From: a virus
Strand: one strand, 5' to 3'
Length of the DNA: 24,384 bases
IMG/VR virus record: IMGVR_UViG_3300031758_000556
Location: 1 to 24,384 of that record
In this document: piece by piece, positions 3,393 to 24,021 of the stretch
Numbering within the stretch: position 1 is the first letter of the stretch
Layout of the letters: each line of letters starts with the position of its first letter
The notes under the pieces: model-generated
The model's input: only the letters and a program-made list of their open reading frames with translations
What the model was told of the DNA's origin: nothing
Database searches by the model: none
Program-made: the position numbers and the translations under genes

Positions 3393-6300
3393 ATGAACGA
3401 TAAACTAGAACAACTATATAATCTGTATAAGAAGAATGGCATTATACAGTCTACTGACTTCAACACATTTTCATCCGCAAGTGATGATCAGAGAAAGAAA
3501 TTATATGATCTAGGAAGACAAAAAGGTTTGTTTAAGACCACCGACTACAACACGTTTAGTTCGGCATTTAGACCTATTAAAAAAAAAGAACAGTCGGTAT
3601 CACCATCCGCACAAAATCAAAAACCTACTTCTTCGGCTACTCAGCAAACGAAGAAGCCAAAGCCTTCGGTATCTTCATCAGTAGGAGGTAGGTTTGCTGC
3701 TGTTACTGAAGCTGTTGAGAAAAAGAAATCAACAGCTCAGAAAGATACTAAGCCACAAGTAGTTTTCCAATCTCAAGAAGGAAAGCGTAATGATATATTT
3801 ACTGGATACCCAGGGGAGGAAGGAAAGAAGTATAGACTTGATAACTCAACTGGTAAGCAAGTATGGATGGAGCTCACGTCTAGTGTTGTAGATAATGCGT
3901 TTGGTCCTACATATGATTTGACGGGTCAAACCCCTGATTATTTAAAAGTATCTACCAAGAAAAAGAACTATGAAATATACAACACGCCTATAACAGACCC
4001 AGCTAGAGTGGCTGAGCTGAACAGGCACTTCAAAAAGAACGCTTCTTCGTCTGAGATAGACCAAGTATTCACTGGATTCCCTGGAAAGGAATCAAATGAA
4101 TATAGGGTTAGAGATAATAAATGGGAGAGAAAAGAGAAGGGATCTAAATCTTGGCAGACTGTTATAAATGAAGGCTCAATACTTGCTCTAAATAAGCAGT
4201 TCAAACAGAATGTAGAACCAACAAAAGATATAGAGAAAGCTAAGATAGATCAAAAGAAAGAAATTGAGAACAAGAAAAACATGAATATCCTTCTTGCATC
4301 AATAAACTCAGATCTAGTTGGCGCAGAAGAAGAATATGTAGCTGAAGAGCTTGATAAGAAATTTCCAGGATTCAAGTTTATAGAGCAAGGACCATTCACT
4401 GATCAGCTGCTTGTTATTGCACCTAATGATAATAGGGTTAGTATTAGTCTAGATAATTTCACTGATGGTGACGATAGAACACAGGCAACTAGACTTAGAG
4501 AGTTCATTAGAAATAATTCAGATCAAAATCTAATACTAGCATCGAAAAAATTATCAGCAGCTGAAGAAAAAGAGAGGAGATTTGTTGAGGAATCAACAAA
4601 GACAATGTATGAAAATGACGTACCATCTGAGTTTAAATGGGTTGATGGCAAGCTAGTTGTGTCAACGTATTTAGATAAGCAGAAGGAGACCGAACAGTAT
4701 AAGAACATAGAGATAGAACAGAAGCTCGCAAGAAAGGAATATATAGACAGGAAAGAGCAACAGTTCAATGATATATATCATCGATTCAAAGGTCAAAAGG
4801 CTGATGAAAAAGAAGTGTCTTCTGCATATGCTGCAATCAAAAAGGACGACTACGAGATAAGGAGAGTCAACCAGTATATGAATGACATTAAAGGTACTAG
4901 CGAGGATGTAGCTAAGGAAAAGGCTAGTGTTGAGGATTATACAAATGATGCAGTAAATAAACTTAGATCTGGAGAAATAACAAAGGATCAATTTGAAGCT
5001 GAGTACAAGCCAGAGATAGATAGAAGAGTTGCAGAGCTAAAGAATAAAGGAAATGCACTTGCAGATGAACTGAATAATATCCAAAACGTAAACAAGGCTA
5101 TAGAGGAGTCTGTAGCAAAGAATTACATAATAGATGAGGCGACGGGATCTTTTGGTGGAGGTATGACGTCTAAATTTGTTAAGGGTCTAACTTATCTTCC
5201 TAGATTAGCTTCGCAAGGAAGTGTATCTGCAAAAGATCAAGAGGATATAGTAAGGCTTATAACTGGGGGAGGAACAACAAAAGAATACATGGAGTCTGAG
5301 GATAGATCAGATCTTGTAAAATCATTGTTTGGCCTTTCTGAATCCATGGGTGCATTAGCATCTGGATCGGCATTTGGTGGAGGTGCTGCTACATACGCAG
5401 CATTCTACGCACAATCATACTACGAGATGAAGGATGACTTGGATCAAGTAGAAGGTATGAGTGAAACATCAAAGGTACTTATGTCAGCTGTATACGGTGG
5501 TCTTAGTTCAGTACTGGAGAAGTATGGTATGGACCTGATTACTCAAAAGTCTGCTATTGGTAAGAACTTTAAGAACAATGTTCTAAAGAAAATGTTTGCT
5601 GATCTACCTAAAGATGCGTCAAAGGAGTACATAGATGCAGCAATGATGAATAGCATTAAGATGACGCTTGCTGAAGCTGGATTGAAGTCATTTACTGGAT
5701 CACTTGGAGAAGGTGTGACTGAATCACTTCAGTCTCTAACTCAAGTAGGAATAAAAGAAGCTTACGACTTGGCTAATGGATCAGAATTCTTTAATAACAA
5801 ATCTGGATGGGAGATATTATCAGATGTAATATATGAAGGATATCTAGGCGCACTTGGAGGAGGTGTTATGTCTACAGTAGCATCATCTCCTAAAGTCCTA
5901 AAGAATGGAGTCTTAAATGCACTTAACGGAGAACAGGCTGAATTACTTATGAATGCAGCCAATACTGAAGGTATTGATAAGGCACTTATAACGAACTTAA
6001 AGGCTAGTGTTCTCACTGGAAAGATAACAAAGGAAGAGGCTATCAATATATCAAATTCGTTTTCTAATGTTAAATCAAAGATAAATCAAATACCATCTGA
6101 TCTGTCTGTTAGTGATAAAGCAAAGGCTCTAGATCTGATGGTTGAGAAATCAACTATAGAAGACAGAATAGCTGGAAAGGATCCTAACCTTGTGTCTAAA
6201 GAGACTGAAAGAATAAACGAAATCAATAACCAGCTAAAAACAATATCACAAAATGCCGTTCAAGAGCAAACAACAGGTGAAGTTTCTGTTCAGCCAGAAA

Positions 6301-9300
6301 CCACAACTGGCCAAGAAGTGGAGGGAGGAAAACCCGAAGCAGGACCTAAAGTCGTTACCGAAGAAGAAATCACAGCAAAAGAAAAAGAACTAGATTCTGT
6401 TTGGAGTGAAAAAAATAAGCTACAAGATAAACTTGAAGGTCAAGGTCTAACTGAAGATGAAATAAGATCAAATGAAGACTTTAGATCTCTAATTGATAGA
6501 GCTGATGTTCTATCTTCAGAGATTTTCAAGCTTAAAGACAGTATTAAAGAAGAAGTAACAATAGACAAGCCTACTATAGCAATAAACGCTACCGTAGAGC
6601 TTGACAGGGTTAAGTCTGTTGACATGGAGTCAGAGGACGGTGCCACATTCAACCTTGATGGGACCAAGTACGAGGGCGGTGGGCTTATTGTCCCTGTGGC
6701 AAGTACAAACACTACTGTAGAGGAGATAACTCCAGAGATGATAGCAGACTTCGTTGAGGCTAACTCTGGAAAGATTGGAGACAAGAACACTGTAAAGGTT
6801 GGTATATACAAATTCCCAAACAGTAATAAGGTGTCTATTGACCTAAATGTTGTAGCTCCAGAGTCTTCAAGAGGTCAGGCTATTGAGTTCGGTAAACAAG
6901 CGGACCAGGAATCACTTTTCGACCTTTCAACTTTTGAGAATGTAAAGACTGGAGGGACTGGAATGAATCCAATGCAGTTTACAGACGATCAGTTCAAGGA
7001 GATAGCAAAGGCACTAAATGAGGGAAGGGTTCCAAATGTATTTGGTTCTCAGCAACCTGCTGCGCAAATGGATATGGATAACACACTTGAGAGAATCAAG
7101 GAGTCATCTAGAAAGTCAGACAGAAAGGCTGTAGGTATGTATAAGGCTGTACGTACAACCCTTCAAGCTTTGCCAGGCGTTAAGATAATTGTTCACGATA
7201 CCACTGATGCCTATAGAGAGGCAATCGCTAAGGCTGAAGGAAAGACCAAAGAGCAGGTGTCGTTAGAGGAGGATGTAGACGGGGTTTCATCTGGAACATT
7301 CCTTGCTAACGGAGAGATACATATTGATGCAACAACTGCGAATGCAGTTACTGTATTCCATGAGGCATTCCATTATGCACTGATGAAGAAAGGTCTTTCT
7401 GGGAAGGCAATCAGAGAGATGGTAGATGGTATTAAGAAGTCTGTTAAAAATAAGGAGCTACTTGCAAGAGTAGAGGACTTTGCTAACCAGTACAGCGAAG
7501 GCGAGAAGAGCGAGGAGTTCGCTGTAGAACTTGGCGCCTTATTAGCAGCTACAGAAAGCGAGATGCTTACACCTAACAACCTGCAGAAGTTCTTCACAAT
7601 CATTAACAATCTATTCAAGAAGGTTGGTCTACCAGCCCCATTTACAGCTGCGTCAACTCGTCAAGATGCGATCGACTTCATTAACTCACTTTCTAAAGGA
7701 CTTCGTGAGGGGACTGATGTTGGGATTAGTGAGGGAATAACATCAACACTAGATGTAAAAGAAAGGAAGAATAGAAAAGTAAATATTGGTGAAGACTACA
7801 AGCTTTCATTTGTAACGAAAGAAGATCTCATAGACATTGACGCACTTGTAAAAGATATAGAGTCTAAAGGACAAAAGGTTTGGTTCTGGGTAGCTGATCA
7901 GCTAGGAAGAGGTATGTATGATGATGCCGTTATGGGAGATACTCATTACCTTGACGCTGGACCATCATTTGCTCTTGATCCAGAGAATAGATCTAAAGGA
8001 GTTATATGGGCGTCTGGAGCTGAGAAGTCATTGCTAGATAAAAACATAAAGAACAGTGATTATATATTCATTATAAGTGGATCACCTCAAAAGTCAAAGC
8101 TATTCAATAAGAGTGTATTTGATTTGTACTCAAAAAGAATTGGGGACTTCAAATCATTTAAAAAGAAAGTACTTGAAGCTGGTGCAACCAAGTCTATCCA
8201 AGAAGTATTAAATGCACATGACTCATGGGAGTCATTAAGAGATGACGCATCTGTAGATAATCCTAAAACTAAAACGATTGGAACTGGCAGAAAGAAGTTT
8301 TTGATAGGAATAACTGATGCATTACAGAAGCCTAATTCTAAGACTTATAAAGTTCTTGAAAGCCTTAACGCTATATTAGATATTGAATCATTAAGAGACG
8401 ATTTCTATAGGGAGAATGAATTCGATATGAATGATGTTATGATCGTTCTTAAGCCTACTGCTGTTGGCGGTAAGTCGTCTCATTCTACGTATGAAAATGA
8501 TATACTTGGAGAAGTTGTCGGAGTACCAGATAAGGTTGTGAATGCGGCTGATATTATGCCAGATGATGTATACGAGCAAGTTAAGGACATGCATAGAGCA
8601 ATGGCTTCACAGAAGATAGCTCCATATGGGTCTGGTGTAAAAAATGTAAAAAGCAGAAGCAAACGAAAGTTATCGCCATCTGTAGCTGAGAAGCTTACTG
8701 AAGACGGAAACGGAAACTACGTATTCCAGCACTGGTCTTCAGGGAAGAGGGACGTTATAAAGCCAGGAAGTGGGCAGAACTCAATCACTGGTAAGGATGA
8801 AGCTTCATCGCTTTCAGCTGTTGGTGGATTGGCACAGTTCTATACAATGAAAGACCAGTCGGAGCCTGGTACTGGTAACGTGCTACATACGGTACTTGTA
8901 CCGATGGATAAGGTGTACGACGCTAAGGAGGATCCTATGAACTTCGAGCCAGAGGCTAGAAGATTATTCAATGAGGCTAGACCTGGTCAGGGATTTGACG
9001 AGGGGTATAGAGCTGCGTTCATAACCAAGGTAGCAAACCAGAATGGTTTTGATATGACTGTATATCCTTGGAGGAATACGGAGCTTCGTGCTCAAACTAC
9101 AATAGAACTTACTCCAGAGAGTGTAAATGTAGAATTCAAGGATAGAAAGAAAGATGAGTATAACGTTGGAGATAAAATTAACGTATATGGAAGAGATGCT
9201 GTAGTAACATCTGTTGATGGACCAGTAATTAACTACAAAGGTGAAACATCTCAAGGATCTATCAACGTTGAAAGATCACCAAGGTCTATTAGGAAGAAAA

Positions 9301-12300
9301 GAAAGGCACCAAAAAATGAGGCTATATCTAAAGCCAAAGAAAAGTACGATATATCTATAGACAGGGGTAACAGCGTTGATCAAGCAAGAAAGTCAGCCAT
9401 GTCTGACTTAAAGAAGAACGACTGGTATGCCAACGCAAGCGATATTGAAAGAGAGGATGCTGTTCGTGATCTTAGAAAGTTTTTTGGTCTGAAAGAAAAG
9501 TCTGCTCCTTCAGTAGCTAAAGTTAGCGCTACAAAGAAGACTACAGTAACTGTAGATGAGAAGACTGCACTTAAGGATCAACTGAAGCGTGCAGCTCGTG
9601 CAGCCCGTGGAGGAGCCAAGTCGATTAAGGACGCACAGAAAGCTATCGCTACAGAGATAAAGGCGATGGTTGAGACTGGAAGAGTGTCAGTGAAACAAGC
9701 TGCATCACTTACAGACAGACTTGCTAAGCTAAATACAGAGAACCCTATCGCTGTTGAGCGATTCTTATCATACGCTGAGCGTGTATTCGAAAGAGCTGAC
9801 TACGCACAGAGACTGAGCGATGCGTTCAAGGTACGAAGAGCTATCTCTAGATTATCAAAAGGAAAGAGCAACCAAGCTGAAGTAAAGGCTATGGGTAAGG
9901 CGTTCTTGGAGATAGATCCGTCAATGGTTGACGACATCGATGTGTACACTGAGATGGCTAATATGATCTATGACGCAATGAAGCCTAGCAAGTCAGCTGG
10001 TACTGAGGCGATCTATAAGAATGCTGCAGTTATCGCTGACGTTAATGCGTACACTGAGGAGATGGTCGCAGCTCAAGAGGAGCAGAAGAAGCAAGACATA
10101 CTTAACATGTACAACGAGCTTGTTACTGCTGGTGTTATCTCTTCTGATATGTCACTGAAAGATATTCAGACGATAATAAGTAAGATAAACGAGAACTTAG
10201 AGATAGAGATCGACGATACACTACTGAAAGCTATCAATAGTAAAATAGATACTGGAAGCGTTAAGGAATATAACAAGGGAACATTTGATATGTTGTCCAC
10301 CCTTGTTAGAGAGACAATGAAGACTGGAGTAGATCCGCTTACTGGAGAGAAGGTCAAATGGGACGATCGTTCTATGGCTCTTATCAAGAAGCTAATGAAT
10401 ATGGACCTAGACAGACTATCTATCAAGGAGCAGTTCAGTGCTATAGAGTCTATTCAGAACTTCATGGTTAACGGTATAACGTCTGGAATAGAAGCTACGG
10501 TGAATGCTTATGAGGGTACACTTAATGCGGATACTCTTGCAAATGAAGGAGTTAAGTCTAGAGACTTAAAGGTTTACTTCAGCAAGATGTTCGGACGAAT
10601 GATGTCTTATGAGTTCGCATCGCTGCCTGTACTTATGGATAGTATGTTCGGAGGTGTAAAGTCTGGTGGTCGTGTCATGGAGATGATGGGCCTTACGAAG
10701 TACGCTAACGGAATTGCAAGGGCTACGAAGACAATGACTGGAATAATAAACGAGTACGGCGAGAAGTTCTCTAAGTCGAAGCCTAACGGTGAAGCATTCA
10801 ACACAGCTAAGAACACATACGAGAGAGGTATGCTATCGTTCTTGAAGCGTACAGTTATGGGTACAGATCTAGAGATGGATGCAGAGCTTGCAAGACGTAT
10901 CGGGCTACTGCGTGACAGTATTACAGAACTAAGAAAAGGAAGCAAGGAGGATAACGCCAAGGCTGATATCTACGATGAGCTATTTAACAAGCTTGGATTA
11001 GATAGAGAGAACGTTAGTATCATCGATATCGAGGCGAGAGTTGACGCTACAAACAGACAAGCTGTAGACTGGTGGATCAGCAAATGGGCTGAGCATTATC
11101 CAGACCTATACGATGTAAGTTTGTCAGTGTTCAATACACAGCTTGGGAAGGATCTGAACTATACACCAGACAGATTCTCGAAGATAGAGCGTAGTAGAGC
11201 CAAGTCAAAAGAGGAGCAGGACCAAATGCTTGCAAAAGCTGGTGCATTCTCTGTAGGCCTTGAGTTTACTGATAAGAGCAAGTCTGGAGTATTGATGGAG
11301 TCAAACAGACCACAGAAGACACCAGGGCGCTTCGTTGATCTTGACTTCGATGTAAGTAATTCATCAGCTATGAAGTCGGCACTGATCGACATTAATACTG
11401 CTGGATCCGTTCGTCAAGTTGACGCGTTCTTGAACTCTGAGTCGTTTAGTGATATGATCCCTAACGAGAAGGATTACAAGCTGCTTATCAATAGAGTGAA
11501 CGACTATATCCGACTTACGAAAAGTAAGGAGGCTATGAGTTATGACTCATTCAAGGAACTAGACAAGGCACTTAATGTGCTTGCTGGATTTGGTACAGTT
11601 AAAGCGTTGGGTGGAGTTTTACAGCCTATTAAGCAGGTTATACCAGTTATGATCAACACGCTGGTTAACGCTGGTAATATTAACATGCGTGTAGCATTTG
11701 ATAAGGACTACAACGAGTGGCTGAATAATAGCGGAATGGCTATTGCGAATAGAGGGATGGAGGCGTCGTCTGCTGTTGAGTCGGCAAACAAGTACTTAGA
11801 TAAGGTGCCAGATGGTAAGGTTCAGACATTACTAAAGGCAGCTGACTCGGTGAATCAGTTCTGGCTTAAGACGTTCTTATCTAACTCTGACGTATTCATT
11901 GCTCGCGCATCATTTGAGGCGTACTACAAGCAAGACCTAAAGCGCAGAGGCAAGGATACCAATATCGACTGGAGCAATCATAAGATCGACCAAGAGGCCG
12001 CGAACTATGCACAACACATGGTTGACCGTCAGCAGAACATCTCTGACACGGCGATGGGTGGTAAGATGATGGCGTCTAATCAGACAGGAAGAAAGATCTT
12101 AAGAAAGACATTACTTCCGTTCGCTAACTTTGTTATGAACCAGAAGAACAGGATGTATTCTGATATTAGAGCGCTACAGAATCCTTTGGCTACTAAGGAA
12201 GATAAGGCTACAGCGTTCAGATCTCTTGTTGGTCTATCTTTGGAGATGATGACATTCCAGGCTATAGCATACGGCATTAGAGAGGCGTTCTCTTACGCTG

Positions 12301-13136
12301 CTGCAGAATTAGTTGGATGGGAGCCAGAGGATGAGGAAGAAAAAAAGAAACAAGCTAAGTACGCGAAACAGAATGTTGTTTCTCAAGGAGTAAAAGACTT
12401 CGTTTCACCAGTTCCATTGACAGATGGTGTAACTCTTCTAGCATTCAACTATCTAGCTGGCAAATTCCAGGACGTATTCTTGTCTGACGGAAAGGATGTA
12501 GCAGAGGCTATCAAGGAGAAAAATAAATCTCTAGTCGATAATGGTAACGAGCCAATGACAGCTGATGAGGTGGCTGAATTTACTGACAAATACAACGACG
12601 AGCATAAGTGGGAATTCAAGGATAAACAAGAGGTAGTTCCTTTGTTCGATCTTGGTACACCTAGTATTGTCCTTAAGAAGACTTACGATCTTTATACAAT
12701 GCTTGAGACAGCTAGAACTGGTGAGTTCGAGAAGGATTACCAAGGACGTAAGACTAAGATGTACTTGACTAAGGAAGATAAAGAGATCTTGAAAACTATG
12801 GTAGCTCTAGAGTCTGCTTACTTAGTTGGAGCAGCTCCAGTTGAGGTAGGTCAGTTAACCAATAAGGTTGAGTCTTTCGTTAAAAAGAAAGGAATGACTG
12901 AAACTCAGAAGGAGAAGTACGATGCTGCTAAAGAGAAGTTTGGGAAGGTTGAGCCTTGGATGATGGAGATCGTTAAGTCTAAAAAGAAAGAAGATGGAGC
13001 AATCCAGGAGATAGAATGGGTTAAATCATTCGGAGATCTTAACGAGAAGCAAGGAAGTAAGTATGTAGAGATCTTCAAAAAGAGAGAAGGACAGGTAACA
13101 TACGATGATATGATGAGAATATCTAAGATGAAGTAA
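3393..13136 (+). CDS. Giant polyvalent ejection protein with zinc-protease and ADP-ribosyltransferase-like domains (T7 gp16/N4 giant-protein position)
   Basis: At 3247 aa this gene covers 40% of the window. In order: two copies of a 29-residue motif (LYxLxxxxGhhxxTDaNTFSSA, residues 8-29 and 37-58); two copies of an FTGaPG..E..YR module 90 residues apart (136 and 226); coiled coils (about 270-570); a Gly/Ala-rich hydrophobic region (about 620-840); acidic coils (about 870-1060); a beta-rich domain (about 1070-1215); a zincin-like domain with HEAFH at 1323-1327 and candidate third ligand E1374 or E1375; a conserved-looking domain with VWFWVADQLGRG near 1495 (about 1455-1750) that I cannot name; a segment resembling polyvalent-protein ADP-ribosyltransferases (FQHWSSGKRD, H1780; AQFYTM); and about 1300 helical residues, including an LPD38-like stretch near 2900. 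Such proteins enter the cell with the DNA; in the polyvalent-protein concept of Iyer and Aravind their domains counter host defences. Ejection role likely; enzyme activities inferred. Confidence 0.8.
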   Translation: MNDKLEQLYNLYKKNGIIQSTDFNTFSSASDDQRKKLYDLGRQKGLFKTTDYNTFSSAFRPIKKKEQSVSPSAQNQKPTSSATQQTKKPKPSVSSSVGGRFAAVTEAVEKKKSTAQKDTKPQVVFQSQEGKRNDIFTGYPGEEGKKYRLDNSTGKQVWMELTSSVVDNAFGPTYDLTGQTPDYLKVSTKKKNYEIYNTPITDPARVAELNRHFKKNASSSEIDQVFTGFPGKESNEYRVRDNKWERKEKGSKSWQTVINEGSILALNKQFKQNVEPTKDIEKAKIDQKKEIENKKNMNILLASINSDLVGAEEEYVAEELDKKFPGFKFIEQGPFTDQLLVIAPNDNRVSISLDNFTDGDDRTQATRLREFIRNNSDQNLILASKKLSAAEEKERRFVEESTKTMYENDVPSEFKWVDGKLVVSTYLDKQKETEQYKNIEIEQKLARKEYIDRKEQQFNDIYHRFKGQKADEKEVSSAYAAIKKDDYEIRRVNQYMNDIKGTSEDVAKEKASVEDYTNDAVNKLRSGEITKDQFEAEYKPEIDRRVAELKNKGNALADELNNIQNVNKAIEESVAKNYIIDEATGSFGGGMTSKFVKGLTYLPRLASQGSVSAKDQEDIVRLITGGGTTKEYMESEDRSDLVKSLFGLSESMGALASGSAFGGGAATYAAFYAQSYYEMKDDLDQVEGMSETSKVLMSAVYGGLSSVLEKYGMDLITQKSAIGKNFKNNVLKKMFADLPKDASKEYIDAAMMNSIKMTLAEAGLKSFTGSLGEGVTESLQSLTQVGIKEAYDLANGSEFFNNKSGWEILSDVIYEGYLGALGGGVMSTVASSPKVLKNGVLNALNGEQAELLMNAANTEGIDKALITNLKASVLTGKITKEEAINISNSFSNVKSKINQIPSDLSVSDKAKALDLMVEKSTIEDRIAGKDPNLVSKETERINEINNQLKTISQNAVQEQTTGEVSVQPETTTGQEVEGGKPEAGPKVVTEEEITAKEKELDSVWSEKNKLQDKLEGQGLTEDEIRSNEDFRSLIDRADVLSSEIFKLKDSIKEEVTIDKPTIAINATVELDRVKSVDMESEDGATFNLDGTKYEGGGLIVPVASTNTTVEEITPEMIADFVEANSGKIGDKNTVKVGIYKFPNSNKVSIDLNVVAPESSRGQAIEFGKQADQESLFDLSTFENVKTGGTGMNPMQFTDDQFKEIAKALNEGRVPNVFGSQQPAAQMDMDNTLERIKESSRKSDRKAVGMYKAVRTTLQALPGVKIIVHDTTDAYREAIAKAEGKTKEQVSLEEDVDGVSSGTFLANGEIHIDATTANAVTVFHEAFHYALMKKGLSGKAIREMVDGIKKSVKNKELLARVEDFANQYSEGEKSEEFAVELGALLAATESEMLTPNNLQKFFTIINNLFKKVGLPAPFTAASTRQDAIDFINSLSKGLREGTDVGISEGITSTLDVKERKNRKVNIGEDYKLSFVTKEDLIDIDALVKDIESKGQKVWFWVADQLGRGMYDDAVMGDTHYLDAGPSFALDPENRSKGVIWASGAEKSLLDKNIKNSDYIFIISGSPQKSKLFNKSVFDLYSKRIGDFKSFKKKVLEAGATKSIQEVLNAHDSWESLRDDASVDNPKTKTIGTGRKKFLIGITDALQKPNSKTYKVLESLNAILDIESLRDDFYRENEFDMNDVMIVLKPTAVGGKSSHSTYENDILGEVVGVPDKVVNAADIMPDDVYEQVKDMHRAMASQKIAPYGSGVKNVKSRSKRKLSPSVAEKLTEDGNGNYVFQHWSSGKRDVIKPGSGQNSITGKDEASSLSAVGGLAQFYTMKDQSEPGTGNVLHTVLVPMDKVYDAKEDPMNFEPEARRLFNEARPGQGFDEGYRAAFITKVANQNGFDMTVYPWRNTELRAQTTIELTPESVNVEFKDRKKDEYNVGDKINVYGRDAVVTSVDGPVINYKGETSQGSINVERSPRSIRKKRKAPKNEAISKAKEKYDISIDRGNSVDQARKSAMSDLKKNDWYANASDIEREDAVRDLRKFFGLKEKSAPSVAKVSATKKTTVTVDEKTALKDQLKRAARAARGGAKSIKDAQKAIATEIKAMVETGRVSVKQAASLTDRLAKLNTENPIAVERFLSYAERVFERADYAQRLSDAFKVRRAISRLSKGKSNQAEVKAMGKAFLEIDPSMVDDIDVYTEMANMIYDAMKPSKSAGTEAIYKNAAVIADVNAYTEEMVAAQEEQKKQDILNMYNELVTAGVISSDMSLKDIQTIISKINENLEIEIDDTLLKAINSKIDTGSVKEYNKGTFDMLSTLVRETMKTGVDPLTGEKVKWDDRSMALIKKLMNMDLDRLSIKEQFSAIESIQNFMVNGITSGIEATVNAYEGTLNADTLANEGVKSRDLKVYFSKMFGRMMSYEFASLPVLMDSMFGGVKSGGRVMEMMGLTKYANGIARATKTMTGIINEYGEKFSKSKPNGEAFNTAKNTYERGMLSFLKRTVMGTDLEMDAELARRIGLLRDSITELRKGSKEDNAKADIYDELFNKLGLDRENVSIIDIEARVDATNRQAVDWWISKWAEHYPDLYDVSLSVFNTQLGKDLNYTPDRFSKIERSRAKSKEEQDQMLAKAGAFSVGLEFTDKSKSGVLMESNRPQKTPGRFVDLDFDVSNSSAMKSALIDINTAGSVRQVDAFLNSESFSDMIPNEKDYKLLINRVNDYIRLTKSKEAMSYDSFKELDKALNVLAGFGTVKALGGVLQPIKQVIPVMINTLVNAGNINMRVAFDKDYNEWLNNSGMAIANRGMEASSAVESANKYLDKVPDGKVQTLLKAADSVNQFWLKTFLSNSDVFIARASFEAYYKQDLKRRGKDTNIDWSNHKIDQEAANYAQHMVDRQQNISDTAMGGKMMASNQTGRKILRKTLLPFANFVMNQKNRMYSDIRALQNPLATKEDKATAFRSLVGLSLEMMTFQAIAYGIREAFSYAAAELVGWEPEDEEEKKKQAKYAKQNVVSQGVKDFVSPVPLTDGVTLLAFNYLAGKFQDVFLSDGKDVAEAIKEKNKSLVDNGNEPMTADEVAEFTDKYNDEHKWEFKDKQEVVPLFDLGTPSIVLKKTYDLYTMLETARTGEFEKDYQGRKTKMYLTKEDKEILKTMVALESAYLVGAAPVEVGQLTNKVESFVKKKGMTETQKEKYDAAKEKFGKVEPWMMEIVKSKKKEDGAIQEIEWVKSFGDLNEKQGSKYVEIFKKREGQVTYDDMMRISKMK

Positions 13137-13140
13137 AAAG

Positions 13141-13170
13141 AAAAGCCCCACCGTAATGATGGGGCTTTTT
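13141..13170. terminator. Bidirectional rho-independent terminator between convergent operons
   Basis: AAAAGCCCCA and TGGGGCTTTT form a 10-bp perfect stem around a 9-base loop (CCGTAATGA). The + strand ends in a T run. Read on the - strand the stem is followed by TTTTCTTTTT. It starts 4 bases after the giant gene's stop and ends 3 bases before the stop of the convergent - strand gene, so it can end both transcripts. Confidence 0.9.
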
Positions 13171-13172
13171 AC

Positions 13173-13382
13173 TTAGTCATCCAATGGTTTATCTAATAAC
13201 CATTCGTTTATTTCCCAGTATGAATAGTCTTTGCATGTTATCTCATCAATAGAGTATATCTTCAACTCTGGCCTTTCAGATTTGGCATATTCTATAGCTT
13301 TATCTTCGCTTGAGAATACGCCATAACAATCTTCATACTTATAGTAATCATCTGTCACTACACTCAAAACATATACCTTCAT
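13173..13382 (-). CDS. Small soluble protein of unknown function
   Basis: The 69-aa product begins MKVYVLSVV and reads as a compact alpha/beta protein: a strand, an acidic loop (TDDYYKYEDCYG), then VFSSEDKAIEYAKS, a strand-turn-helix seen in small phage and bacterial proteins with an S-x-(E/K)-A helix. An ATG at 13391 would add three residues (MTS) and overlap the preceding stop by 8 bases; I chose 13382, which leaves one base between the genes and gives the usual MKVYVL opening. It is the last gene of the - strand operon, directly before the terminator. No function can be assigned from sequence. Confidence 0.6.
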   Translation of the reverse strand: MKVYVLSVVTDDYYKYEDCYGVFSSEDKAIEYAKSERPELKIYSIDEITCKDYSYWEINEWLLDKPLDD

Positions 13383-13994: not shown

Positions 13995-14699
13995 CTATGC
14001 AAATATAAATTTAGTTTTGTTTTTTATATATCCAACTAGCATAGCTCTCAAATTATTTTTGTTGATATTATTGTATATAGAGGCATCATTGACATTGTAA
14101 TAAAATATGCCATTTTCAGTGTCAAGTACTATTCTAGACCTTGTGTTTTTAAATCCAGAAAACTTATCAATAAGAGCTAATTTTAACATCTGCTTTGTTT
14201 CATCAGTCATTGGTCTTCCATGCTTATGTTTGCCAGATTTAATCTTTGATTCCAATATTTTAGCTTTCCATTCTTCAGTGAATACCCTGCCTTTGAATCT
14301 GTTTGACAGTTTCTGCCTTGTCTCTTCACTTTTAGTTGTACCATACATTGGATTTTTAACACCAAGCTTTCCTTCAGAAAGTTTTTTAGAAGTATATTCA
14401 GAAACAACCCTAGGCTTACCATAAGATTCAGCTAACATAGAATTTAATCCGTTTGGCGCCAATGAATTATAATGATCTTGCCAGTGCCTCTCTCTTACAT
14501 TCATTTCTTCAAATTCACATTCCTCTATTATTTCAAATATATGATTATCAACACCATGCTTTTTTAGCGAGTTAATTAATACAGTCTGAGTTTTGCATTG
14601 AAGATTTTTGTATTGCTTGAATCTTTTATCTACATTCCTGCTCTGACCTATATATATCTTGCCAGATGGTGACTTTATCATATATATTACACACTTCAT
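13995..14699 (-). CDS. Freestanding GIY-YIG homing endonuclease with NUMOD-type DNA-binding modules
   Basis: The 234-aa protein starts with a GIY-YIG nuclease domain: VIYMIKSPSGKIYIGQS gives the paired VIY/YIG strands, followed by R21/R25-type basic residues and a Glu-rich helix (EIIEECEFEEMNVRERHW) that carries the metal-binding Glu region. The centre holds NUMOD3-like repeats (GVKNPMYGTTKSEETRQKLS and similar basic segments) that contact DNA in I-TevI and Seg enzymes. The C-terminus (VLDTENGIFYYNVNDASIYN) resembles NUMOD1. The gene begins 4 bases after the phosphoesterase stop and is more AT-rich than its neighbours, as expected for a mobile homing gene. No intron boundary is apparent, so it looks freestanding, like T4 seg genes. 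The family call is firm; target site unknown. Confidence 0.9.
   Translation of the reverse strand: MKCVIYMIKSPSGKIYIGQSRNVDKRFKQYKNLQCKTQTVLINSLKKHGVDNHIFEIIEECEFEEMNVRERHWQDHYNSLAPNGLNSMLAESYGKPRVVSEYTSKKLSEGKLGVKNPMYGTTKSEETRQKLSNRFKGRVFTEEWKAKILESKIKSGKHKHGRPMTDETKQMLKLALIDKFSGFKNTRSRIVLDTENGIFYYNVNDASIYNNINKNNLRAMLVGYIKNKTKFIFA
14000..14007 (-). promoter_or_regulatory. Candidate -7 element TATATTTG upstream of the membrane-protein genes
   Basis: On the - strand TATATTTG matches TAnnTTTG. The nearest TTG upstream is 25 bases away, longer than the usual spacing. It lies inside the last codons of the GIY-YIG gene, so it could give the downstream genes their own transcript beyond the endonuclease. 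An AT-rich context makes a chance match possible. Confidence 0.3.
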
Positions 14700-21851: not shown

Positions 21852-22220
21852 CTAAAACGGAAGATCCTCTTCCTCTGAATCTCCTAGCGGATCTGGTGCG
21901 CTAAGGTCGATGGTAGGGGCTGGCGCTGGCGCTGATCCAACGGTATCAATTCGCCATGCCTCCAGTGTATTGAAGTACTTGGTCTCTCCCTGTGGGCTCG
22001 TCCACTCACGACCACGAAGGTTGAAAGACACTTCGACTTCCTGTCCTTCCATAATTGTGTCCAATAGATCGCACTTGTCTTGCGTCACCTGGAAAGAGAT
22101 TACCTGCGGATACATTGCATCACCGTCTGATACGACTAGATCGCGCTTTGAAAACTTTTCGGACACCTTCACAGTGTCTCCAATGAACTTTACAGTTCCT
22201 GTCAACTTGTAGTTACTCAT
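21852..22220 (-). CDS. Single-stranded-DNA-binding protein, DUF3127 type
   Basis: The 122-aa protein follows the DUF3127 pattern of Bacteroidetes: LTGTVKFIGDTVKVSEKFSKRDLVV, then a strand YPQVISFQVTQDKCDLL, EGQEVEVSFNLRGREW, and KYFNTLEAWRIDTV, all compatible with an OB fold. After residue 97 comes an Ala/Pro linker and a very acidic tail ending EEEDLPF. That ending copies the SSB C-terminal tip (DDDIPF), which recruits replication and repair partners. Together with the adjacent exonuclease and primase-helicase this argues for a phage SSB. It is followed by a terminator, so a short abundant transcript is plausible. DNA binding is inferred from family and tail, not shown. Confidence 0.85.
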   Translation of the reverse strand: MSNYKLTGTVKFIGDTVKVSEKFSKRDLVVSDGDAMYPQVISFQVTQDKCDLLDTIMEGQEVEVSFNLRGREWTSPQGETKYFNTLEAWRIDTVGSAPAPAPTIDLSAPDPLGDSEEEDLPF

Positions 22221-22229
22221 ATTACTGAT

Positions 22230-22370
22230 TTATATTGATTTACGTAGATCATAGTGGAGGATTAATTTCTTTGTGCCGTCCTCCATGGCAATAACTTGCT
22301 CTCTTCTTCTGTACTTTGCAATCTTAGTCACTGTAAGACTGATTCCTTTTTTGTTTCCTTTTAATCTCAT
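22230..22370 (-). CDS. Candidate 46-aa basic protein downstream of the last attC-like site
   Basis: An ATG frame of 46 residues (MRLKGNKKGISLTVTKIAKY, RRREQVIAMEDGTKKLILHYD) fills the space between the attC-like element and the SSB-like gene, ending 9 bases before the latter's ATG. The product is basic with a strand-rich pattern and an A-rich leader (AACACAACAAATG) like that of Bacteroidetes genes. It starts 38 bases after the GTTA of the attC-like site at 22409-22454, close to the 29 and 34 bases seen for the two cassette genes. However, no matching CTTATAAC end is found downstream, so it may be phage sequence that received the array. No family is recognised. Confidence 0.5.
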   Translation of the reverse strand: MRLKGNKKGISLTVTKIAKYRRREQVIAMEDGTKKLILHYDLRKSI

Positions 22371-22408: not shown

Positions 22409-22454
22409 TAACAAAGCATAAGCGACACTAAAGCGATCGCTTATGCGACTGTTA
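22409..22454 (-). repeat. attC-like recombination site 1 (end of the 78-aa cassette)
   Basis: On the - strand: TAAC, 4 bases (AGTC), a 10-bp perfect stem GCATAAGCGA/TCGCTTATGC around an 11-base loop, 3 bases (TTT), GTTA. The last base of the 78-aa gene's stop codon is the first base of the flanking box AGCATAAC, which complements the GTTATGCT at the start of the same cassette. Confidence 0.6.
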
Positions 22455-22731
22455 TGCTCAAGTGCTTGATTCTTCATTCTTTAATAAATCTTCTATTGTT
22501 CTGAATTGTCTGTTTGTCTTGTCATCAATCCACAAAAAAGAATTCGTTCTACTTTCGTAGCACTCTATTAAGAATAAGTCATCTTTACTGTATTGCGGAG
22601 ATTCATCTATAGGCGTTTCTCCTTCATATTTAAAGCCCATATCTTCTAAGATTTGATACGTTATTGGTTCATCTGTAATTCTTTTTTGTTCCATTTTATT
22701 TTATTTGTTAATATTCCGCACCTAAGCATAA
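22412..22731 (-). mobile_element. Integron-like gene cassette B (78-aa gene plus its attC-like site)
   Basis: The unit runs from the TT of GTTATGCT (complement of 22725-22732) to the G of site 1. Its two ends, GTTATGCT and AGCATAAC, are perfect 8-bp inverted repeats and differ from those of the neighbouring cassette. It holds one promoterless-looking gene in the orientation expected of integron cassettes (start near the leading end, stop adjoining the attC-like site). No recombinase is encoded here. Confidence 0.6.
22458..22694 (-). CDS. Cassette gene: acidic hypothetical protein, 78 aa
   Basis: The product is acidic and soluble. A helix-forming start (PITYQILEDMGFKYEGETPI) is followed by a polar linker (DESPQYSKDD), a strand (LFLIECYESRTNSFLWIDD) and a helix (FRTIEDLLKNEE). 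The centre resembles small bacterial proteins with an 'hxxhGF..e' opening, but I cannot name a family. Codons are AT-ending (GAA, AAA), unlike the surrounding phage replication genes. It is bounded on both sides by attC-like elements, its stop merges with one of them, and it therefore appears to be mobile cassette cargo. Functions of such cargo range from antitoxin-like to defence proteins; nothing here decides between them. Confidence 0.7.
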   Translation of the reverse strand: MEQKRITDEPITYQILEDMGFKYEGETPIDESPQYSKDDLFLIECYESRTNSFLWIDDKTNRQFRTIEDLLKNEESST

Positions 22732-22777
22732 CCACACCTTAGCGCAACTGAAGTATGCGTCAAGCTGTTTAACGTTA
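22729..22777 (-). repeat. attC-like recombination site 2 (between the two cassette genes)
   Basis: On the - strand: TAAC, 6 bases (GTTAAA), arm CAGCTTGACGCA, 9-base loop, arm TGCGCTAAGGTG (9 Watson-Crick pairs, one G-T, two mismatches), 2 bases (TG), GTTA. The asymmetric 6/2 spacers match site 3. The flanking box before TAAC is CCGC and after GTTA is TGCT. Confidence 0.6.
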
Positions 22778-23097
22778 GCGGTCATGCTAATCGGCTTCCT
22801 CTAAATTATCGGCGGACATACCAAAAACACCATACCCACCTAAAAATGGCATTTCATCATTTGACTTTTCACAGGTAATGGTTACGCTTCCATCTTCTTG
22901 TTCTTCGTATGAACGTGGACTATATCGGTTTCCAATATCTTCGGTAATTCTTTTGTCTTTGTACTTTTTCCACGGCACAATTTGTTCAGCTACTTTCCTT
23001 ACATTTTCAGGGCGTTCAGAAAGCCATTTTTCCCATTCTTGTTTTTGTTCTGTTGTTAATTCCATTTTACTTTGATATATGAAGCACGAACCGCTAA
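22732..23097 (-). mobile_element. Integron-like gene cassette A (92-aa gene plus its attC-like site)
   Basis: The unit runs from the TT of GTTAGCGGT (complement of 23090-23098) through the 92-aa gene and site 2 to the G of site 2's GTTA. Its leading box GTTAGCGGT and the box ACCGCTAAC in front of its own site 2 are perfect 9-bp inverted repeats. This within-cassette complementarity is the hallmark of integron cassettes. Confidence 0.6.
22787..23065 (-). CDS. Cassette gene: acidic hypothetical protein, 92 aa
   Basis: The N-terminal half is helical (TTEQKQEWEKWLSERPENVR, KVAEQIVPWKKYKDK) and the second half is a short strand-rich acidic region (EEQEDGSVTITCEKSNDEM, GYGVFGMSADNLEEAD). The opening W..WL..RP..V and W..Y motif resembles small bacterial proteins found as cassette or island cargo, but I cannot assign a family. 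Fourteen of its fifteen Glu codons are GAA and Lys is mostly AAA, while the adjacent exonuclease gene uses many GAG and AAG codons. That, plus the flanking attC-like sites, supports lateral acquisition. The ATG lies 29 bases after GTTA of site 3 and follows an A-rich leader (AAAGTAAAATG). Confidence 0.7.
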   Translation of the reverse strand: MELTTEQKQEWEKWLSERPENVRKVAEQIVPWKKYKDKRITEDIGNRYSPRSYEEQEDGSVTITCEKSNDEMPFLGGYGVFGMSADNLEEAD

Positions 23098-23220
23098 CAA
23101 GTGCTATACAATATGGCGGCTGACGTGCTTCGATTAAACATTTTTACTAATTCAAACTTTGGTGCTTCGTATTGGGCTTTCTGCTGAAACCCCGCCACAT
23201 CGTATAGCACCGATACGTTA
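23095..23220 (-). repeat. attC-like recombination site 3, long hairpin form
   Basis: On the - strand: TAAC (its TAA is the exonuclease stop), 6 bases (GTATCG), a 19-base arm, a 72-base loop, the second 19-base arm (17 of 19 positions pair), 2 bases (TT), GTTA. On the + strand the arms are GTGCTATACAATATGGCGG (23101-23119) and CCGCCACATCGTATAGCAC (23192-23210). The loop repeats GTGCTTCG twice, and GAAGCACG recurs inverted at 23081-23088. Confidence 0.65.
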
Positions 23221-24021
23221 TCCACAATTCTTACCCTTCAGCATCTCAATCCTATCCAGAGCATACTTACCAGCTGCCTTAAGCCTACGCTCCATATGGG
23301 CCTTGACATCGTCTTCCAATGAAACCTCAACGATCGTGTATCTTAGTCGTGGATCAAGGTCGTCCACATAGTGTAGATCATCCGACTCACCTTCCCACAC
23401 CATCTCTTCTGGTGTAGACATTAGGACGTGGATGATCTTTCCTTTGGTCCATCCCTTCATCAGAATATACATACGTACCTGCCATGTGTAATCAGAATTC
23501 TCGGCGTCTTCTACCGTCTCTGGGAAACTATCCTTGGTCTCTGGACACTTGATATCTATTACTTCACAATCATCGTAATCAACGATGTCTGGATGTCCCT
23601 TCACCAGATCTCCATACGTCAGCTCTTCTTCCGACTTAACCCACGCCTTGAGTAGCTGAACGTTCATAAACTCGATCGCTGATTGCTCAACCTCGTTCCC
23701 CTTTTCCGTAGCCCTATTGCCACGGAAAGGAGGTCTCTTGTAGTTATAGATTAACTTCTTTACACACTTGTTGAGGTATGTCTTCGCTCCAGCTGGTAGC
23801 TCGATGATACCAGCATTAAAGTTTTCATCAATGGTAAGAAGGTTGTCAAGCTCTGCCTTCATGTTGTCAGTTAACTCAAGCTTCTTCTTCTCCTTTGGAT
23901 CGGTAGAAACAAGGAACGACGCATGCCTGTCAGACAGCTCACCCTTTCTCTTCTTCTGCGCCTCAGTAAGACCATCTGTCCCACTGAATAACGGAGCTAT
24001 GTTATGCGTTTGGAGTAGCAT
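23218..24021 (-). CDS. PD-(D/E)XK exonuclease, YqaJ/Cas4-like
   Basis: The 267-aa protein carries the PD-(D/E)XK nuclease core: a helix with E110/E112 (RATEKGNEVEQSAIEFM), D145 in GHPDIV, D156-I-K158 in EVIDIKC and Q181 in WQVRMYI. The pattern G-x-x-E...GxPD...DhK...Q is that of YqaJ/lambda-exonuclease and Cas4/RecB-type nucleases, which resect DNA ends in phage recombination. The first 100 residues are a charged helical extension. The start overlaps the preceding gene by 20 bases. Next to an SSB-like protein and an OB-like protein it probably forms the phage's recombination/replication module. Its TAA stop provides the first bases of the neighbouring attC-like site, marking the point where the cassettes begin. 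Confidence 0.87.
   Translation of the reverse strand: MLLQTHNIAPLFSGTDGLTEAQKKRKGELSDRHASFLVSTDPKEKKKLELTDNMKAELDNLLTIDENFNAGIIELPAGAKTYLNKCVKKLIYNYKRPPFRGNRATEKGNEVEQSAIEFMNVQLLKAWVKSEEELTYGDLVKGHPDIVDYDDCEVIDIKCPETKDSFPETVEDAENSDYTWQVRMYILMKGWTKGKIIHVLMSTPEEMVWEGESDDLHYVDDLDPRLRYTIVEVSLEDDVKAHMERRLKAAGKYALDRIEMLKGKNCG

Follow-up and report, generated by a model that had tools for sequence, protein, structure and literature searches.

The window, that is, the whole stretch of DNA analysed here (24,384 bases), is a virus record with replication proteins similar to those encoded by phages of Flavobacterium, Nonlabens, Polaribacter, and other Bacteroidota. Its plus strand holds a single ORF of 3247 aa (3393–13136), which takes up about 40% of the contig and likely encodes a virion-carried multidomain protein. 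At about 13100–13200 the coding strand switches and the GC skew changes sign, at the border of the structural and replication modules. On the minus strand, a 234-aa protein at 13995–14699 with a GIY-YIG-like start (CVIYMIKSPSGKIYIGQS), recognised by eye, is probably a homing endonuclease. Further along, also on the minus strand, one finds in this order the exonuclease, site 3, a 92-aa gene, site 2, a 78-aa gene, site 1, a 46-aa ORF, and the SSB:

23218–24021, minus strand: phage exonuclease, upstream of the array (phrog_5715 exonuclease, 1.3e-32)
23095–23220, minus strand: attC-like site 3, TAAC-GTATCG-19-bp stem-TT-GTTA, spacers 6/2; one box is TAAC + G, the other GTTAGCGGT
22774–23220, minus strand: cassette B unit (site 3 hairpin, GTTAGCGGT, 92-aa gene, ACCGCTAAC), 9-nt box complementarity
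22787–23065, minus strand: cassette B gene, an ORF of 92 aa with six IMG/VR relatives at 60–88%
22729–22777, minus strand: attC-like site 2, TAAC-GTTAAA-imperfect stem-TG-GTTA, spacers 6/2; intact copy in phage contig L189
22451–22777, minus strand: cassette A unit (site 2 hairpin, GTTATGC, 78-aa gene, GCATAAC)
22458–22694, minus strand: cassette A gene, an ORF of 78 aa whose sole IMG/VR relative found is the identical copy in L189
22409–22454, minus strand: attC-like site 1, TAAC-AGTC-GCATAAGCGA..TCGCTTATGC-TTT-GTTA, spacers 4/3, perfect 10-bp stem
22230–22370, minus strand: ORF of 46 aa between the array and the SSB
21852–22220, minus strand: SSB-like protein (DUF3127), downstream of the array (phrog_4932, 3.3e-35; PF11325, 2.8e-25)

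An earlier note, made from the sequence alone, had proposed these coordinates and spacers for the three sites, and both hold when sequence and folding are examined; the profile matches bear out its placement of the cassettes between exonuclease and SSB-like genes. It also saw no integrase, in agreement with a tblastn search using two recombinases of the family described below, which gives no match in the 24-kb window, a linear fragment. No attI-like site occurs in the window itself. Its view of the hairpins as unrelated needs qualifying: sites 2 and 3 share a class (AACG at the first box, a long 5′ and a short 3′ spacer), and site 1 is atypical (AACA, 4/3). Site 1 is probably the phage's own acceptor or an array-end site. 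Site 3 overlaps the end of the exonuclease gene, the TAA stop codon sitting in the site 3 box. Both cassette genes are bracketed by reverse-complementary boxes (9 nt for B, 8 nt for A if the flanking base is included); this is the mark of cassette ends and had escaped the earlier note. With three sites in 0.8 kb and no integrase, the window qualifies under a relaxed site definition as a CALIN (at least two attC within 4 kb without an integrase). The cassette B protein has no Pfam match above cut-off, and its AF2 model, of moderate confidence (pLDDT 77), has no PDB match at E < 0.001; structure prediction for cassette A is poor. A homologue of cassette B in phage locus L082 (87–88%) is also a cassette, with boxes GTTGTGC..GCACAAC. 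The exonuclease used as bait finds no IMG/VR relative and only distant ones in the phage collection.

A two-link chain of box matches of at least 8 nt arises in 5 of 200 shuffles and is, alone, weak evidence. Site 3 scores 17.7 in a hairpin-plus-box scan, in which shuffled windows yield 0.05 sites of at least 11 per window. A covariance model trained on 12 sites, with site 3 included and sites 1 and 2 left out, ranks these two as the best matches of the window, on the right strand (E of 0.024 and 0.034), and the covariation on 12 sites amounts to 62 both-side cells, versus 18.6 when shuffled. The covariance-model search proposed in the earlier note finds the site class in at least 13 of 119 Bacteroidota genomes, which also contain arrays. 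This is a floor, because only 45 candidates per genome were scored and because the model, R1, whose loop was cut to 8 nt, misses long-loop sites, including site 3. Read on one strand, a site of this class has an R box (YAACG/TGTTR), an asymmetric unpaired loop with a long and a short side, mostly 6/2 or 5/2, and then a long stem. Among linked phage sites the unpaired central spacer is 6/2 in 130 of 238 and 5/2 in 68 of 238. In R′, the G that follows AAC is invariant (26/26 sites); this base is also a conserved position of canonical attC (PMC2727003). A search of Rfam gives no attC-like match, and a sub-threshold hit of a miRNA model to the site 3 stem (E of 0.48) was ignored. The pattern TAACGGTTTGCG..GGCGGG was set aside, most of its matches being due to chance (about 3 convincing loci of 20).

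Cassette A is also found in L189 (3527–3853), the only IMG/VR contig matched by the 78-aa protein, where it lies between other cassettes. The two copies are 100% identical over 327 bp (window 22451–22777) and have unrelated flanks, the identity ceasing at the YAAC box on either side. What they share begins with the TAAC of site 2, continues with its hairpin and the 78-aa gene, and ends with the AAC of site 1. Hence, the hairpin travels upstream of its gene, and exchange takes place at the box next to the 6-nt spacer; a crossover at the box beside the short spacer, suggested by analogy with classical drawings, is the opposite of what the L189 identity indicates. Six further cassettes are common to pairs of phage contigs (L403/L411, L426/L442, L362/L409, L369/L373, L362/L393, and L413/L468), and their blocks break at the same boxes within 0–9 nt, with the exception of one end in L362/L393. 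The shared blocks end at the 4-nt box, beyond which the sequences differ. As judged from sequence comparison, the seven cassettes common to different phage contigs demonstrate mobility with exact breakpoints, and these breakpoints place the crossover in the GTT/AAC triplet of R′.

The earlier note had named a constant pair of genes in related phages as the observation that would argue against mobile cassettes; L189 has one of the two, among other cassettes. It had also suggested looking for relatives without cassettes, and these exist: in the syntenic phages L502, L005, L006, L007, L002, and L511, exonuclease and SSB are separated by a cassette-free gap of 5–58 bp, and the relative L503 carries sites elsewhere. 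Together with the covariance-model matches, these data support its reading of the locus as an attC-type cassette array. Cassettes A and B are each absent from 395 Bacteroidota genomes, and cassette B was found neither in genome_contigs nor in the phage records.

Such arrays are frequent in phages. The site pattern of one sub-type matched 117 stretches in IMG/VR. The matches of this pattern and of a second one define 142 loci, on contigs of uncultivated viruses, in which a scanner tuned on sites of this class identifies 325 sites and 164 neighbours linked by their boxes, against 2 and 0 in shuffles. The complementarity of R′ (GTTR..) and R″ (..YAAC) seen in the window (9 and 8 nt) is a property of 164 linked phage pairs. 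The largest array has 22 sites in 14.6 kb, and some arrays are on contigs of more than 120 kb. At L401 (6095) and L423 (5210), two sites with matching boxes lie 21 bp apart, apparently an empty cassette without a gene. Eight of the site-bearing loci (L082, L387, L386, L390, L441, L380, L396, and L393) encode a tyrosine recombinase of one family. L390 is a phage, since its recombinase gene is followed by those of terminase, portal, and major head protein.

Arrays of the same sites occur in genomes of Bacteroidota. For example, L206 has 12 sites whose neighbouring boxes match by at least 8 nt, and the box matches of chromosomal arrays span 8–10 nt. The recombinase found beside several of these arrays matches the integron integrase profile TIGR02249 in two pieces, skipping profile positions 180–238, which correspond to the IntI insert. 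One array-linked recombinase was used as bait in 148 genomes, many of them MAGs, and gave 15 close and 20 more distant homologues, picked by protein score alone; 20 Xer-like loci served as controls. The close loci have 33 sites in about 233 kb and the distant ones 33 in 324 kb, versus 3 in 357 kb for the Xer controls; no site was detected at 2 of the 15 close and 4 of the 20 distant loci. The sites point outward from the recombinase gene with a single exception (81/82; seven of the loci counted belong to genomes that had initially been selected for having sites). Downstream of the recombinase stop, at a distance of about 66–102 bp, a GTTR box terminates an A/T-rich stretch; it matches the R″ box of a downstream cassette by 9–10 nt in 13 of 15 chromosomal loci. 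By its sequence and its place next to the integrase gene, this box is an attI-like site. In L223 (G001:C57), the gene at 402–1771 encodes a XerC-like recombinase of 421 aa, extended at its C-terminus; it adjoins a site and is possibly itself a cassette gene.

Chromosomes and phages differ in the orientation of the cassette genes. In chromosomal arrays the gene precedes the attC-like site in the same orientation, lying opposite to the TAACG-first strand in 23 of 25 cassettes; the Vibrio control shows the same arrangement. Phage cassettes, those of the window among them, have the gene on the TAACG-first strand in 162 of 175 cases, five of the 162 coming from L236, a MAG contig with genes matching phage families. 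The contrast has a Fisher p of 7e-19, with linked cassettes treated as independent. L236 itself (9.4 kb) is phage-like, was binned with the bacterial MAG G425, and has seven sites and a DNA methyltransferase cassette. At phage loci with a recombinase, the array is upstream of the recombinase gene and points the same way, so that the inversion gives a single operon direction.

Two parts of classical integrons are missing from this system. The distance between DR and LRH, measured on linked recombinases elsewhere, as the window has none, is 60–61 aa in both homologue groups versus 102 aa in IntI1; therefore, the IntI-specific additional domain (I2) is absent. No IntI above the TIGR02249 cut-off was found in 12 genomes carrying such sites. 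The C-terminus of the family is mostly SPLD or SPFD, as in IntI, versus FHPRG in Xer, and a midpoint-rooted tree with only two IntI sequences separates Xer from a group of IntI and the insert-less proteins (100/100), with the phage recombinases forming one clade (100/99). The sites, in turn, lack extrahelical bases on the R″–L″ arm: the corresponding bulge is present in 3 of 246 phage sites and 4 of 66 chromosomal sites, and the same scanner, applied to a Vibrio phage integron as a positive control, finds 3/3 spacers and the bulge in most sites.

Integron integrases have I2 to accommodate the extrahelical bases of attC (PMC4792948). When these bases are removed, the bulge of the spacer can still impose strand choice, and attC × attC recombination fails for IntI1 and VchIntIA (PMC2727003). 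The mechanism in the present system must therefore differ. Given the roles assigned in these two works, a system that has neither I2 nor extrahelical bases, and in which the asymmetry of the spacers is exaggerated, would form a coherent whole. It is likely that an integron lineage of Bacteroidota never had, or lost, both I2 and the extrahelical bases that go with it, that loop asymmetry sets the choice of strand and box instead, and that a separate branch of the lineage exists in phages, among them large ones, where it has a recombinase clade of its own and a pool of small-gene cassettes in inverted orientation.

Very probably, the window holds an integrase-less array (CALIN) in the genome of a Bacteroidota phage, and the array is a member of an integron-like lineage found in Bacteroidota and in the phages that infect them, with A and B as mobile cassettes. 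In such a system, one strand of each site would fold into a hairpin, and the insert-less, IntI-related tyrosine recombinase would carry out strand exchange at the YAAC box on the long-spacer side. Cassettes would leave as circles and enter attC-like or attI sites. The order in chromosomes is recombinase, attI, cassettes, with each gene before its site; in phages the array precedes the recombinase of the phage clade. Because the phage cassettes have gene and site inverted with respect to each other, their genes share one direction with the recombinase gene and, in L390, with the late genes. Cassettes A and B would have been inserted between exonuclease and SSB, where they may be read with the phage operon and may benefit the phage. 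The recombinase responsible was presumably encoded by the host, by another phage infecting the same cell, or by a portion of this genome missing from the sequence. Counted against this interpretation are the lack of a family recombinase in the window, the absence of A and B from the 395 genomes, the atypical site 1, the recombinase loci devoid of sites, and the failure of IntI1 and VchIntIA in attC × attC when extrahelical bases are missing.

Among the rival explanations, the least improbable is that of ordinary attC cassettes from a bacterium with a normal integrase, that is, a CALIN of the classical IntI type. The GTTATGC and GCATAAC boxes look VCR-like. CALINs are also known from phages, and a site of phage P12002L is used by IntI1 (PMC9892861). 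Yet the linked recombinases lack the IntI insert, the 12 site-carrying genomes examined have no IntI above cut-off, and the R″–L″ bulge, which the same scanner detects in Vibrio sites having 3/3 spacers, is nearly absent from sites of this class, which makes a classical origin improbable. Homologous recombination, or modular shuffling at conserved linkers, would dispense with a site-specific recombinase altogether, boxes and hairpins serving as homology. Phages are indeed mosaic, and the alike hairpins of one sub-type could recombine. However, the identity of shared blocks ceases at a 4-nt box and the sequences past it differ, the end boxes of a cassette match each other rather than a fixed linker, and the sites cluster beside one recombinase family; this reading is thus very improbable. 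Finally, the hairpins might be transcription terminators or processing signals and the box pattern a matter of chance, as could be argued from the perfect hairpin of site 1 directly 3′ of a gene and from the chains obtained in shuffled windows. These readings were rejected as hardly credible, since the hairpin was carried within its unit to L189, 164 linked pairs face none in shuffles, and further box-exact cassettes exist elsewhere.

Within the favoured reading of an integron-like lineage, the phage cassettes may form a closed pool moved only by phage-encoded recombinases and not by host integrons. This is suggested by the single clade of phage recombinases, by the proportion of inverted genes (162:13 in phages versus 2:23 in chromosomes), and by the lack of A and B in the bacterial genomes. 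On the other hand, the hairpin type of L189 is also found in a Flavobacteriales MAG (L170/L204), phages and chromosomes have the site structure in common, and the sampling of genomes is thin. A closed pool is, on balance, somewhat less probable than its contrary.

These results point to an integron-like system widespread in Bacteroidota and their viruses, whose recombinases and sites do without two parts thought essential in classical integrons. The array system is recurrent and has its own recombinase family, and is thus more than an oddity of one phage. Because both I2 and the extrahelical bases are missing together, the origin of single-strand cassette recombination becomes testable. The arrays, with their small cassettes and up to 22 sites, also represent a large reservoir, as yet unread, of accessory genes that phages can exchange with one another. 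Complete integrons of Bacteroidetes have been reported from Salinibacter only, in one case (PMC9024848), and IntegronFinder demands the IntI-specific domain (PMC9668308); defining and searching integrases by I2 could explain the near lack of integrons in this phylum.

With classical integrons, such as class 1 and the Vibrio superintegron, the system shares complementary R′ and R″, the GTT/AAC crossover, the conserved G after the AAC of R′, an attI-like site beside the recombinase, and polar arrays. It differs from them in its recombinase without the IntI insert, its sites without R″–L″ extrahelical bases, its 6/2 or 5/2 spacers (3/3 in the Vibrio control), and the inverted genes of phages. Xer and XerA give similar HMM scores (NF040815, 208–216 bits; XerD, 184–188), but the family is a separate branch, with the IntI-like C-terminus and a linkage to cassette arrays. 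In a survey of tyrosine recombinases, the insertion is held to be essential for integron function though not fully conserved (Smyshlyaev et al. 2021, PMC8138268); the insert-less proteins described here, which may or may not coincide with the integron-like subgroup of that work, adjoin cassette arrays.

The earlier note thought an attC-type array in a Bacteroidota phage unusual and possibly undescribed. Such an array is in itself not new: phage CALINs, including that of the Bacteroidota (Polaribacter) phage P12002L, also an attC array without an integrase, are already described in Qi et al. 2023 (PMC9892861). According to the same work, five of six phage sites tested work with IntI1, and a P12002L site, not matched one to one with those scanned here, recombined in IntI1 × attI1. 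Our scan of P12002L shows the same boxes (AACG..TGTT) and asymmetric 5/2 or 6/3 spacers. Several sites of the class are present in this phage (L088; e.g., 38035–38090, 38879–38936, and 40761–40949), and some flank methyltransferase and Mom-like genes. The part of PMC9892861 examined makes no link to the insert-less family, to phage-encoded recombinases of it, or to inverted genes. In the literature searched, mainly open-access journal papers, no integron lineage lacking I2 and extrahelical bases and having a phage branch was found. Because both features were tested for and found missing, the system is not filed as a classical integron. It works like an integron; sister lineage or variant is the most fitting term.
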